In this document: one piece after another, positions 37,409 to 46,341 of the stretch
Layout: every line of letters begins with the position of its first letter
Numbering within the stretch: the first letter of the stretch is position 1
Source: Tepidamorphaceae bacterium
Lineage (GTDB): Bacteria > Pseudomonadota > Alphaproteobacteria > Rhizobiales > Tepidamorphaceae
Direction of reading: 5' to 3'
DNA: 64,000 nucleotides
Assembly (NCBI GenBank): GCA_028279445.1
Contig: JANQNT010000024.1
Location: forward strand, 62,001-126,000
The notes under the pieces: model-generated
Told to the model about the DNA's origin: nothing
What the model saw: only the letters and a program-made list of their open reading frames with translations
Database searches by the model: none
Translations under genes and position numbers: made by a program

Positions 37409-38038
37409 ATGAGTTGCGTTTCCCCCCCTTCAGCCTGGCGGCTGGCAGGACTTGCCGCGGCCGGTGCGATGGTCCTCTCCGTTACCGCCTGTGCCAACCC
37501 GATCACCGACCGCATTGGCGAAGCGTCGAGCGGCGTTGCCGAACGGCTGGGACTGTCCGGCGAGCAAAGCCCCAGCGACGAGCAGGCCCCGCCGCCGGTA
37601 GCGCGCGGCGAGACGCGTCCCTGTCCCCAGGCGATCATCCGCGACGGCACCCAGACGCTCAGGGTCTACGAGCCGGCGGGCGAGGGCGATCCGGACTTCG
37701 TGCGCTATCAGGGATCGATCACCAAGGTCGCGCGCGAATGCATCTACGCCGGCGACGAGATCGTCACCATCAAGTTCGGTGTTCAGGGCCGGGTGGTGAT
37801 CGGCCCGTATGGCAGGCCTGGAACCTACTCGCTTCCCATCCGCGCCGTATTCGTTCCGCGCGGCGGCGAGCCGGTCTGGGGTCAGCTCTATCAGGTCTCG
37901 GTGACCATTCCCGAGGAGGGCACCAACGCCGCCTTCCAGCTTGTCGAGCAGACCGCCGCCTATACCATTCCCCCCGGTACCAGCATGAGCAACCACGCGG
38001 TCTATGTCGGCTTCGACGAACTCGCCGGCCGTCAATAA
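37409..38038 (+). CDS. Putative lipoprotein, conserved in outline only
   Basis: A 209-residue protein with a lipoprotein signal (hydrophobic segment LAGLAAAGAMVLSVTA then Cys28). The mature part starts with a flexible, polar, proline-rich segment (about 35-70), then a beta-rich domain with two further cysteines (RPCPQAIIRDG and ARECIYAGDE) and ends with NHAVYVGFDELAGRQ. The mature domain pattern (input polypeptide with VRYQGSITKVAREC) is seen in rhizobial envelope proteins of unknown function. Divergent from ispH across about 245 bases and followed by the glycine riboswitch. Confidence 0.8.
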   Translation: MSCVSPPSAWRLAGLAAAGAMVLSVTACANPITDRIGEASSGVAERLGLSGEQSPSDEQAPPPVARGETRPCPQAIIRDGTQTLRVYEPAGEGDPDFVRYQGSITKVARECIYAGDEIVTIKFGVQGRVVIGPYGRPGTYSLPIRAVFVPRGGEPVWGQLYQVSVTIPEEGTNAAFQLVEQTAAYTIPPGTSMSNHAVYVGFDELAGRQ

Positions 38039-38122
38039 AAGCACCCCGCGTCAAGGTTTATAATCCGAGGTGAGTTGACACCCGGCAGCCTGTGTCTATC
38101 ATCGGCGCCGTCGAAGAATCGA

Positions 38123-38359
38123 CCTGCGGGAGACACTGGCAGATAAGCCAGGGCCGAAGGCGCAACCGCCCCGGAAACGCTCAGGCAACAAGGGACCGCA
38201 GGCCGAAATCGACCTCTGGAAAGCAACCGGATCAAGGTCCGGTTCACCGAAGGGCGTAGACCGCCAGATGCCTTGCCGGACGATCGGTCCGGTTAGCGTC
38301 AATGTCCGGACCCGGTGTCCGGACGCGGCGGTGAAATCTCTCAGGTTTCGCGACAGAGG
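38123..38359 (+). ncRNA. Tandem glycine riboswitch
   Basis: Two consecutive glycine aptamers upstream of gcvT. Aptamer 1 is closed by CCTGCGG/CCGCAGG (38123-38129, 38196-38202) and contains GGCCGAAGGCGCAACCGC and GGAAACGCTCAGGCAA. Aptamer 2 is closed by CCTCTG/CAGAGG (38213-38218, 38354-38359) and contains CACCGAAGGGCGTA and AATCTCTCAGG. Aptamer 2 is enlarged by two extra hairpins (38276-38292 and 38305-38323). Glycine binding is expected to switch on the glycine cleavage operon. Confidence 0.92.
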
Positions 38360-38408
38360 GGGCACGTGACGGCGCAATCCGCGCCGGTGGTGCTGTGACG
38401 CGAAACCT
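38343..38408 (+). promoter_or_regulatory. Predicted expression platform of the glycine riboswitch
   Basis: AGGTTTCGCG (38343-38352), part of the conserved core strand of aptamer 2, is perfectly complementary to CGCGAAACCT (38399-38408), which ends 8 bases before the gcvT ATG. Formation of this 10-bp stem would break aptamer 2 and mask the ribosome landing site; glycine binding would free it. A small GGCGC/GCGCC hairpin lies between the arms. Inferred from complementarity only. Confidence 0.65.
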
Positions 38409-38416
38409 GGTGATGC

Positions 38417-39574
38417 ATGTCGGGGCCTGATCAAGATCAATCGAAAACGGCGAGCTTGCTGCGCACTGCGCTGCACGCCGTCCACGTTGCCGCCGGTGCG
38501 CGCATGGTTCCCTTCGCCGGCTATGACATGCCGGTGCAGTATGCCGACGGCATCATTGCCGAACACACCTGGACGCGCACCAATGCCGGTCTGTTCGACG
38601 TCTCGCATATGGGGCAGGCACGCCTCGTCGGGCCGGATCATGCAAGCGTTGCCGCGGCCATCGAGGCGCTCGTTCCCGCCGAGATCACAGGGCTTGCGCC
38701 TGGCCGCCAGCGCTACAGCCAGTTGACCAACGACGATGGCGGCATCATCGATGACCTGATGATCGCCCGGCCGGCGGACCCCGCCCACGACGGGCAATTG
38801 CTGCTGGTGGTCAACGCGGCGCGCAAGGAGGTCGACTTCGCCCATATCGCGGAGCGGCTGCCGGGCGGTATCGAGCTTGTCCGCGAGGACGAGCGCGCGC
38901 TGATCGCGTTGCAGGGGCCGCGGACCGAAGCCATTCTGTCGGCGCATGTGCCCGGCATCGCCGACATGTCCTTCATGCAATCGGTCGAGGCGCCGTTCGG
39001 CGGCATCGCCTGCCGGCTGTCGCGCTCCGGCTATACCGGCGAGTACGGTTTCGAGATTTCCGTTGAAGAAGGGCATGCCGAGCAGGTCTGGGCCGGCCTC
39101 AGCGGCGATCAGTGGGTGCGCCCGGTTGGCCTTGGCGCGCGCGATACGCTGCGGCTGGAAGCGAGTCTGTGCCTCTACGGTAGCGACATTGACGAGACCA
39201 CCTCGCCGGTGGAAGCGGGGCTTGAATGGTCGATCGGCAAGCGCCGCCGCGAGGAAGGTGGCTTTCCCGGAGCCGGCCGTATCCAGCGCGAGCTCGCCGT
39301 GCGCCCATCGCGCCGCCGGGTCGGCATCCGGCCGCAGGGCAAGGCGCCGGCGCGGGCTGGCACCGTCATCGCGGATATGCAGGGCAATGAGATCGGCGTG
39401 GTGACCAGCGGCGGCTTCGGGCCGACCGTCGGCGCACCGATCGCCATGGGCTACGTCATGCGGGAGCATGCCTTGCCCGGCACCAGGATCGCGCTGCTGG
39501 TGCGCGGTCGCGAACTTGCCGCCGAGGTCGTCGACCTGCCTTTCGTGCGGCCGCGTTTTCATCGCGCGAACTGA
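38417..39574 (+). CDS. gcvT: Glycine cleavage system T protein (aminomethyltransferase)
   Basis: Transfers the methylene group from the aminomethyl-lipoyl H protein to tetrahydrofolate, releasing ammonia. 385 residues with [17 protein letters not shown] at residues 27-43, [12 protein letters not shown] near residue 57, the folate-binding [20 protein letters not shown] near residue 195, and [14 protein letters not shown] later. First gene behind the glycine riboswitch, followed by gcvH after 34 bases. The ribosome site is weak, consistent with riboswitch control. Confidence 0.95.
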
Positions 39575-39608
39575 TCGGTTTTCGATTTTCAGGACAGGGG
39601 ACGACACC

Positions 39609-39980
39609 ATGCTGCGCTTCACCAAGGACCATGAATGGGTGCGACTGGAGGGAACGGAGGTGACCGTCGGCATCACCGACTACGCCCAGTCGCAACTCGG
39701 CGACGTCGTTTACGTGGAACTGCCGGAGATTGGCCGCGCGGTGACCGCGGGCGGCGAGGCGGCGGTGGTGGAATCGGTCAAGGCCGCAAGCGAGGTCTAC
39801 GCCCCGGTCGCCGGCGAGGTGACCGCCGTCAACGATGCGCTTGCCGAAAACCCCGGCACCGTCAACGAGGATGCCGAAGGCACCGGCTGGTTCGTGAAGA
39901 TCAAGGTTGCCGACGTGGCCGAGGTCGAAAAGCTGATGGACGAGGCCGCCTACAAGGCCTTCGTGGAGGCAGAGGGATAG
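39609..39980 (+). CDS. gcvH: Glycine cleavage system H protein
   Basis: The lipoyl carrier of the glycine cleavage complex. 123 residues, with the lipoylated Lys58 in [28 protein letters not shown] at the N-terminus and [19 protein letters not shown] near the end are typical. ATG 39609 follows a CAGGGGA site. A longer in-frame reading to 39468 overlaps gcvT. Confidence 0.96.
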
Positions 39981-40054: not shown

Positions 40055-40522
40055 ATGGCCCACCGCTATACCTCTGAAGTTATCTGGTCGCTCGACGAGG
40101 GCGATTTCGCCGGCAACACCTATTCGCGCGGACATCTCTGGCGCTTCGACGGCGGCATCGAGGTGCCGGGGTCCGCGTCTCCCACCATCGTGCCGTTGCC
40201 CCATTCCGTTGAGGCGGCGATCGATCCCGAAGAAGCCTTCGTCGCCGCGCTGTCGAGCTGCCATATGCTGTGGTTTCTCGATCTCGCCCGCCAGGCGGGC
40301 CATGTGGTGACGCGCTACGAGGACGAAGCCGAAGGCGAGATGGAGCGCATCGGCAAGGGTCGCCTTGCCATCACCAGGGTGACGCTGCGCCCGCGGATCA
40401 TGTTCGAGGGCACGCCGCCGGATGCCGCGGCTCTCGACGACCTGCACCATCGCGCCCACGACAACTGCTTCATCGCCAACTCCGTGACGACCGAGATCAC
40501 GGTGGAGGCGCGCTCATCGTGA
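40055..40522 (+). CDS. OsmC family protein inside the gcv operon
   Basis: A 155-residue predicted thiol peroxidase of the OsmC/Ohr fold. The two active-site cysteines are in [15 protein letters not shown] (Cys69) and [10 protein letters not shown] (Cys138), and [13 protein letters not shown] is the family helix. OsmC proteins detoxify organic hydroperoxides, some with lipoylated reductants. That makes its place between gcvH and gcvPA, beside a lipoyl protein, suggestive but unproven. AGGAGAG lies before ATG 40055, and gcvPA starts 13 bases later. Confidence 0.9.
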
Positions 40523-40535
40523 AGGGATACAGTCT

Positions 40536-41879
40536 ATGCGTTATCACCCGCTGACCGACGCCGACAGGGCGGCGATGCTGGCGAAGATCGGCGTATCGGA
40601 TATCGATGCGCTGTTCGCCGACATCCCCGAGGCCGCTCGCCTCACCGAACCGCTCGATCTGCCGACGTCGCGCAGCGAACTGGAGGTGGAGCGGGCGATG
40701 TCGGCGCTCGCGGCGAAGAACACATCCGCAGCTTCGGTGCCGTTCTTCGTCGGCGCCGGCGCCTACCGCCACCACGTACCGGCAAGCGTCGATCATCTGA
40801 TCCAGCGTTCCGAATTCCTCACCGCCTACACGCCCTATCAACCGGAGATCGCGCAAGGCACGCTGCAGCCGCTGTTCGAGTTCCAGACCCAGGTCGCCCG
40901 GCTGACCGGCATGGAGGTCGCCAACGCCTCCATGTATGACGGCTCGACGGGATGCGCCGAAGCGGTGCTGATGGCGCAACGCCTGACGCGGCGCTCCCGG
41001 GCTGTGTTGTCGGGCTCGCTGCATCCCCATTATCGCGATGTGGTCGAGACAGTCTCGCGGCTTGCCGGCGACGAGGTGGTGGCGCTGCCAGCCGATCTGG
41101 CGGGCGCTGAGGATGTCGCCGCTCATATCGACGAGACGGTCGCCTGCGTCGTGGTGCAGACGCCCGGCGTCTTCGGCAACCTCACCGATCTGAGGCCAAT
41201 CGCGGAGGCCGCTCACGCCGCCGGCGCGCTGCTGATCGCGGTGTTCACGGAAGTCATGTCGCTCGGGCTCATCGAACCGCCCGGCGCCATGGGCGCCGAC
41301 ATCGTTGTCGGCGAAGGCCAATCCATCGGCAACGGGCTGAACTACGGCGGTCCTTATGTCGGCCTGTTCGCGACGCGGCAGAAATACCTGCGCCAGATGC
41401 CGGGCCGCCTGTGCGGCGAGACGGTGGATGCGGACGGTAGGCGCGGCTACACGCTGACCCTGTCGACGCGTGAGCAGCATATCCGCCGCGACAAGGCGAC
41501 CTCCAACATCTGCACCAATTCGGGGCTGTGCTGCCTCGCCTTCACCATCCACATGAGCCTGCTCGGCGATCTCGGGCTGACAAGGCTGGCGAAGCTCAAC
41601 CACGCCAACGCGGTGCTGCTGGCCGACGGTCTGGCGAGCGTGCCCGGCGTCGAGGTGATCAACGAGACCTTCTTCAACGAGTTCGCCATCCGCGTGCCCG
41701 GCAACGCGGCCGACGTGATCGAGGCGCTTGCGCAGAAAGGTGTGCTCGGCGGCGTGCCGTTCTCCCGGCTCGATCCGCAGGCGGGTCTCGACGACGTCAT
41801 CCTCGTCGCTTCCACGGAGATCAACACGGATACCGACCGCGCCGCCTACGTATCCGCCCTCACGGAGGTGCTGGCATGA
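40536..41879 (+). CDS. gcvPA: Glycine dehydrogenase (decarboxylating) subunit 1
   Basis: N-terminal half of the P protein, a 447-residue PLP-fold subunit working with GcvPB to decarboxylate glycine. Marks are [19 protein letters not shown] at the start, [16 protein letters not shown] near residue 70, [14 protein letters not shown] near 90, and [20 protein letters not shown] near 267. The two-gene P protein is usual in Gram-positives and some alphaproteobacteria, while many rhizobia have a fused gcvP. ATGA overlap with gcvPB. Confidence 0.96.
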
Positions 41880-43441
41880 GCATGAACACACAAGGGCGGC
41901 CCTCCGCACCAGCCGATGGAACGGCATCCGCCGCGCCTGAGACCTTCACCGGCAACAAGGCGCTGATGATCGAGGAGCCGCTGCTGTTCGAGATCGGCCA
42001 TGTGGACAATTGCGGCGTCGATGTGCCGGACGCACCGGACATCGGTAGCCGCCTCGGCGGACTGGAACGCAGCGAGCCGGCCGGATTACCCGGTCTCTCG
42101 GAACCGGAAGCCATGCGCCACTATGTGCGCCTGTCGCAGAAGAACTACGCCATCGATCTCGGCATCTATCCGCTTGGCTCCTGCACCATGAAGCACAACC
42201 CGCGGCTGAACGAGAAGATGGCCCGACTGCCGGGCTTTGCCGATGTGCATCCGCTGCAACCGCAATCGAGCGTACCGGGCGCGCTGGAGCTGATCGACAC
42301 GCTTGCCGGCTGGCTCAAGGAGATGACCGGCATGGCGGCGGTCGCCATGAGCCCCAAGGCCGGCGCCCATGGCGAGCTGTGCGGCATGATGGCGATCAAG
42401 GCAGCGCTCGAGGCGCGCGGCGAGGCGCGCAGCACGGTTCTGGTGCCGGCCTCGGCCCACGGCACCAACCCCGCGACCGCCGCTCTGCTCGGCTACGGGG
42501 TCAAGGAAATCCCCGCCCGCGACGACGGTACCGTCGATCCGCAGGCGGTGGCCGATCTGCTCGACGACACCGTCGCCGGCATCATGCTGACCAACCCGAA
42601 CACCTGCGGCCTGTTCGAGCGCGACGTGATCGCCATTGCCGACGCGGTGCATAAGGCCGGCGCCTACTTCTACTGCGACGGGGCGAACTTCAATGCCATC
42701 GTCGGCAAGGCGCGGCCCGGCGATCTCGGCATCGACGCCATGCACATCAACCTGCACAAGACCTTTTCCACGCCCCATGGCGGCGGCGGACCTGGCGCCG
42801 GCCCGGTGGTCTTCTCGCAAGCGCTTGCACCCTTCGCGCCGCTGCCGGAGGTAGTCGGCGAAGGTGATGATCTCAGGCTTGCCGAGCACCGCGCGGACCT
42901 GCCGCAGAGCTTCGGCCGGCTGACGGCGTTTCACGGCCAGATGGGCATGTTCGTGCGTGCGCTCGCCTACATGATGGCCCATGGCAGCGACGGCCTGCGG
43001 CGCGCCTCGGAGGATGCGGTGCTCAACGCCAACTATGTGCGCGCCGGCCTGTCGGACCTGATGTCGCTGCCCTTCGGCGACCGCGTCTGCATGCACGAGG
43101 TGCTGTTCGACGACGCCTTCCTCAAGGACACCGGCGTCACCACGCTCGATTTCGCCAAGGCGATGATCGACGAGGGCTACCACCCGATGACCATGTATTT
43201 CCCGCTGGTGGTGCACGGCGCGATGTTGATCGAACCGACCGAGAGCGAGTCCAAGGCGAGCCTCGATCTGTTCATCGCCACGCTGCGCGATCTGGCGATC
43301 GATGCCCGTGCAGGCAAGACGGATCGGTTTTCCGGCGCGCCCTATCACAGTCCGCGCCGTCGTCTCGACGAGACCCGCGCCGCGCGCCAGCCGCGCCTGG
43401 TGTGGACGCCAGCGGAACCGGTCAAGGAAGCGGCGGAGTAG
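41876..43441 (+). CDS. gcvPB: Glycine dehydrogenase (decarboxylating) subunit 2
   Basis: C-terminal half of the P protein carrying the PLP lysine, Lys295 in [17 protein letters not shown]. 521 residues, a little longer than usual because of about 20 polar residues at the N-terminus. Other family marks are [13 protein letters not shown] near residue 100, [14 protein letters not shown] near 195, and [11 protein letters not shown] near 440. ATG 41876 overlaps the gcvPA stop. The intergenic 43442-43662 that follows should hold the ppdK promoter; I see no gene there. Confidence 0.96.

Positions 43442-43662: not shown

Positions 43663-46341
<2,679 letters not shown>

Follow-up and report, generated by a model that had tools for sequence, protein, structure and literature searches.

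Glycine riboswitches with two aptamers in tandem precede gcvT in Bacillus subtilis, where the ON logic reportedly works via transcription termination, and in the betaproteobacterium Neisseria gonorrhoeae. According to a 2026 report, control in N. gonorrhoeae is translational: when glycine is absent the ribosome binding site is held by aptamer 2, repression is relieved when the CTCAGG of aptamer 2 is mutated within a truncated leader or when positions -2 to -5 are changed, and the glycine response survives bicyclomycin (PMC13104608). Its authors describe the platform sequence as variable among Neisseria, with an extended stem-loop predicted in all. Platforms predicted to act on translation form the computational class 'translation attenuation' of Barrick and Breaker (2007; PMC2258182) and, in the available parts of later surveys, occur mainly in Proteobacteria/Pseudomonadota and Actinobacteria (PMC6944388, PMC12452182). 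The Rfam glycine model describes the aptamer alone, without an expression platform, and the mode of action of most such switches is left unassigned. Here the gcvT leader of a Tepidamorphaceae bacterium (Alphaproteobacteria, Rhizobiales; assembly GCA_028279445.1) is described from a stretch of 64,000 nucleotides (contig JANQNT010000024.1, positions 62,001 to 126,000, forward strand), hereafter the window, whose numbering is used throughout. In a literature search with most subscription journals outside its coverage, no description of a gcvT start-region arm or of its covariation in alphaproteobacteria was recognized.

The leader is probably (at a rough probability of 0.83) a tandem glycine riboswitch with a translational ON platform, in which aptamer 2 competes with the gcvT start region. 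The basis for this is a pair of complementary arms, their covariation among families and two structures that exclude each other in predicted folding.

Complementary arms in aptamer 2 and the gcvT start region

Two glycine aptamers (RF00504; gathering threshold 32 bits) lie in tandem in the leader, on the plus strand like all features described below unless stated, and their glycine binding is predicted from sequence. The first (38117-38208) scored 57.6 bits (E = 2.7e-9), above gathering, and the second (38206-38366) 32.9 bits. Aptamer 2 has a long P3b arm and is closed by P1, six Watson-Crick pairs between CCUCUG (38213-38218) and CAGAGG (38354-38359); its core letters are common to the window and its relatives.

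A preliminary description of this DNA had proposed that part of the aptamer 2 core, AGGTTTCGCG (38343-38352), is complementary over 10 bases to CGCGAAACCT (38399-38408), 8 bases before the gcvT ATG at 38417. Both segments and the gap were found at these positions and the complementarity is confirmed, with a perfect helix that reaches 11 bp rather than 10. It joins CAGGUUUCGCG (38342-38352, switching arm 1, in the 3' part of aptamer 2) to CGCGAAACCUG (38399-38409, switching arm 2, on the start-region side) and stops 7 nt 5' of the ATG. Assignment of arm 1 to the aptamer core holds for CAGG and for the part belonging to P1, which are conserved, whereas the letters between them are variable and co-evolving.

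Beyond a 2-nt bulge four further pairs are possible (ACAG, 38353-38356, with CUGU, 38393-38396), so the pairing that would close the start region (OFF) can extend into the P1 3' strand. In the minimum-energy fold this pairing is enlarged by C38340-G38410 and by AUC (38336-38338) paired with GAU (38412-38414), and a predicted inner hairpin of the linker (38370-38386) lies within the OFF hairpin. Most of a Shine-Dalgarno (SD)-like GGUGAU (38409-38414) directly follows the 11-bp helix on its 3' side, and the outer pairs cover this motif in the OFF fold. The predicted duplex of the upstream stretch with UCACCUCCUU, assumed to be the anti-SD of this genome, has an energy of -6.6 kcal/mol.

When the 57-nt linker was shuffled 20,000 times with dinucleotides preserved, 13 shuffles contained a perfect match of at least 11 to the 25-nt aptamer-2 segment. 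Elsewhere in the window, with every 57-nt stretch of both strands examined, a match of at least 10 to this segment occurred solely at its own complement.

Covariation across the order

Sequence comparison indicates that the aptamer-2 segment and the gcvT start region covary across 41 families of the order. The loci were gcvT leaders from the named genomes, from the family and from 80 places of an order-wide sample (80 of the 81 first-aptamer places taken among the matches listed, with G022 left out). From 168 stretches, 130 were retained after dropping 16 that lacked the core pattern, 12 with no in-frame start and 10 without gcvT; a spacing filter left 124, with 76 distinct aptamer-2 segments when identical cores were counted once. 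Start codons were assigned by an automatic rule (SD energy plus a preference for ATG) and are probably in error at some loci (for example, L028, L081, L095 and L130); mis-started loci beyond the spacing limits dropped out of the test.

Each AGG...GACAG segment was paired with the start region (-30 to +6) of its own gene and with those of other species, and the duplex energies were compared. Over the 76 segments the mean was -11.95 kcal/mol for own and -10.21 kcal/mol for swapped regions (z = -6.8; 0 of 20,000 permutations), and the two source sets, each taken alone, gave z = -5.8 (0/20,000) and z = -5.0 (1/20,000). The window's own duplex ranked first among the 76 in both swap directions. Control targets were near null (linker middle, z = 0.5; coding sequence, z = -1.6), which makes base composition an unlikely cause. 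With one genome per family (41 families), three random draws gave z from -6.0 to -6.8 (0 of 10,000 permutations each), or from -5.5 to -6.3 without the window (n = 40), permutation counts being approximate as they take families as independent. In this one-per-family test, targets shifted to -66..-31, -50..-14, 0..+36 and +20..+56 were null, and the target -10..+26 gave a weak signal (z = -1.3 to -1.8). An earlier version of the test, with the whole linker plus coding start as target, was weaker (46 distinct segments, z = -4.2) and was replaced; a version with a longer arm that took in the invariant CUCUC likewise gave less signal (z = -3.4).

Restriction of the covariation to the start region bears on an account in which control is dual or mainly transcriptional. 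Closure of the start region would then allow Rho to terminate the untranslated mRNA, with the hairpin as trigger, and regulation would be mostly at the RNA level. A search of the plus strand from 37900 to 38600 found no intrinsic terminator, as such an account would have it, and termination in leaders without clear terminators is the context of PMC5756330, as far as its accessible part goes. The letters 3' of the hairpin, GUGAUGCAUG, contain no U-tract, so it is not an intrinsic terminator, and a transcription-terminating platform, defined by a G+C-rich hairpin and U-tract before the gene, was rejected. However, the gcvT riboswitch of N. gonorrhoeae still responds when Rho is inhibited (PMC13104608), and covariation limited to the start region points to ribosome access as the selected step. 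Rho-mediated control of the window's gcvT is considered rather unlikely.

Comparison within the family

A tandem glycine riboswitch lies 5' of gcvT in all eight genomes of the family. Pairs were counted in seven of them, L013 being left out as its arm is one base longer. Standard pairs fill 67 of the 77 cells of the 11-bp helix (87.0%), against 22 to 39% when the partner was slid by 1 to 3 columns, and 4 of 500 shuffles reached the observed percentage and covariation score. Two-sided changes occur at column pairs 6, 7 and 8, where the window has U-A, U-A and C-G and the commonest relatives have C-G, C-G and U-A; helix pair 2 (A-U) forms only in the window. Beside the window's arm type, GGUCCUGC is another type found among family members. 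Variation of 38399-38408 without compensation had been named beforehand as telling against the switch; the arm does vary, but with compensation in relatives.

AGGA, which could plausibly serve as an SD 6 nt upstream of the ATG, occurs within the arm in four of the seven relatives (L014, L015, L016 and L018). The window's arm no longer has AGGA, and GGUGAU adjoins it instead. A wider interpretation, which we favour with some reserve, is that the variable stretch between CAGG and GACAG is an antisense specific to the start region, rewritten across the order with each gene's ribosome binding site. One translational ON platform would then persist despite turnover of its letters, and in the window it would have outlived a move of the SD from inside the arm (AGGA) to beside it (GGUGAU).

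Predicted folds and the choice between them

Folding with and without an aptamer constraint made aptamer 2 (P1) and the start-region hairpin mutually exclusive in prediction. In the free fold the pairs of the OFF helix have probabilities of 0.98 to 1.0 and P1 has 0.0; enforcing P1 raised the mean unpaired probability of arm 2 from 0.00 to 0.59. None of 100 shuffles of the 331-nt leader was as stable as the real fold (z = -3.5). In folding of the growing transcript, the mean P1 probability was 0.93 with the end at 38366, 0.88 at 38404 and 0.0 at 38409, where the OFF helix reached 0.99.

During transcription of the leader, the aptamers would fold first, with P1 closing aptamer 2. As the start region emerges, arm 38399-38409 and its flanking pairs would compete for segment 38342-38356 of aptamer 2. 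Without glycine the long hairpin would win, breaking aptamer 2 open and burying GGUGAU and its flank, and gcvT and the rest of the operon would be poorly translated. Once glycine is bound, segment 38342-38356 would stay with the tandem aptamers and the start region would remain open. The exclusive predicted folds, the covariation and the N. gonorrhoeae mutations support the translational ON logic of the preliminary description, in which glycine folds aptamer 2 and frees the start.

Several results weigh against such a switch. In another scan, aptamer 2 was rescored as 38209-38366 with 25.5 bits, under gathering. The predicted ensemble gap is 9.2 kcal/mol to the disadvantage of ON, a guide only, as the folding model includes neither ligand nor tertiary contacts; it is larger than one would expect simple equilibrium binding to cover. 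Some of the SD keeps partial pairing even when the fold is ON (unpaired probability 0.26 to 0.68). Within the family, 46 of 500 shuffles reached the observed number of two-sided pair changes. Across the order, at least 8 segment/start-region pairs are expected in 46 of the 76 own leaders and fewer than 8 in 30, and 242 of 608 random chimeras also have at least 8.

Given the energy gap in favour of OFF once the arm exists, the choice between folds is probably made during transcription, and the original qualification of the switch as 'simple' is doubtful. The strong dominance of OFF in predicted folding is also what a purely structural element would display, that is, a start-region hairpin that constitutively reduces gcvT translation with no glycine control. 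This we judge improbable: the partner segment, which lies within the aptamer, changes in concert with the start region in the 41 families, and P1 is dominant in the growing transcript until the arm emerges. The frequent pairing of chimeras between unrelated leaders, in turn, is in keeping with chance complementarity of a conserved aptamer segment and the linker. It probably arises because the invariant aptamer CUCUC complements purine-rich SD sequences, and the CUCUC share of the pairing is beyond the reach of covariation testing. As an explanation of the arms chance is scarcely credible, with 11 bp so seldom reached in shuffled linkers, compensated changes within the family and an own-versus-swapped excess localized to the start region; as a general account it is refuted by the one-per-family test.

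The operon and neighbouring features

Behind the riboswitch lie gcvT (aminomethyltransferase, 38417-39574; PF01571, E = 2.9e-79, also PF08669), gcvH (39603-39980; PF01597, E = 2.6e-42), an OsmC-like gene between gcvH and gcvPA (40055-40522; PF02566, E = 4.2e-15), gcvPA (glycine dehydrogenase subunit 1, 40536-41879; PF02347, E = 1.1e-120) and gcvPB (glycine dehydrogenase subunit 2, 41879-43441; PF21478, E = 9.2e-20). Together, gcvT-gcvH-osmC-like-gcvPA-gcvPB make up a glycine-breakdown operon, and control of its glycine-metabolism genes (gcvT, gcvH, gcvPA and gcvPB) by the riboswitch is putative. Four bases 5' of the gcvT start, an out-of-frame ATG begins a frame of five codons, MHVGA (38413-38430), that overlaps gcvT; by eye, it is at the position where family relatives place the gcvT ATG. 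Pyruvate phosphate dikinase (43663-46341) is encoded 3' of gcvPB on the same strand.

A putative sigma-70-like promoter, TTGACA-16-TATCAT (38075-38102), recognized by consensus only, would start transcription near 38109; it matches 11 of 12 consensus positions, with 0.1 such sites expected. Directly 5' of the riboswitch, on the same strand, is an open reading frame of 209 amino acids (37409-38038) with a lipoprotein-like N-terminus by inspection and no match in a Pfam search. At the 5' end of the leader, GUCGA (38110-38114) pairs in the predicted free fold with UCGAC (38209-38213) in a leader-linker helix, whose linker half shares C38213 with aptamer 2 P1.

The P3b arm of aptamer 2 contains 75 nt (38260-38334) where the Rfam consensus has 12 positions in the alignment, and its hairpins are rich in GUCCGG. 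The idea that it is a dispersed repeat was rejected, as a genome search below E 0.1 gave only its own locus. Matches inside aptamer 2 to the L31-Actinobacteria leader (17.1 bits; gathering 35) and to PhotoRC-I (12.5 bits; gathering 45) were set aside as sub-gathering.

The genome has a second tandem glycine riboswitch (locus L002; G000:C19:359772-359980, minus strand), 5' of a gene for an FAD-dependent oxidoreductase (PF01266, E = 1.2e-67). A simple scan there for a long complement of the aptamer-2 core found none.

Comparison with known systems

The window's riboswitch shares aptamer class, operon type and ON logic with what is said of the gcvT riboswitch of B. subtilis; unlike that reportedly terminator-based system, no terminator is seen here. 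The platforms of Barrick and Breaker's class are likewise translational, and no alphaproteobacterial gcvT arm or covariation is given in the accessible part of that work (PMC2258182).

As in the available account of N. gonorrhoeae (PMC13104608), tandem aptamers precede gcvT, and nucleotides of aptamer 2 (in N. gonorrhoeae, CTCAGG among them) are partners, here by prediction, of the gcvT start region when glycine is absent. Glycine turns expression on there and presumably does so here, and the two leaders are similarly spaced between aptamer 2 P1 and the start, by 62 nt in N. gonorrhoeae and 57 nt (38360-38416) in the window. By description, and unlike in N. gonorrhoeae, aptamer 2 has a long P3b arm here; the N. 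gonorrhoeae riboswitch is also the target of two small RNAs. The own-versus-swapped test detects a platform whose pairing is kept while its sequence is not. An order of bacteria is thereby linked to a mechanism shown by mutation in Neisseria, and the outcome of between-species arm swaps becomes directly predictable. As a design this was known before, from Neisseria; what is added here is its order-wide covariation.
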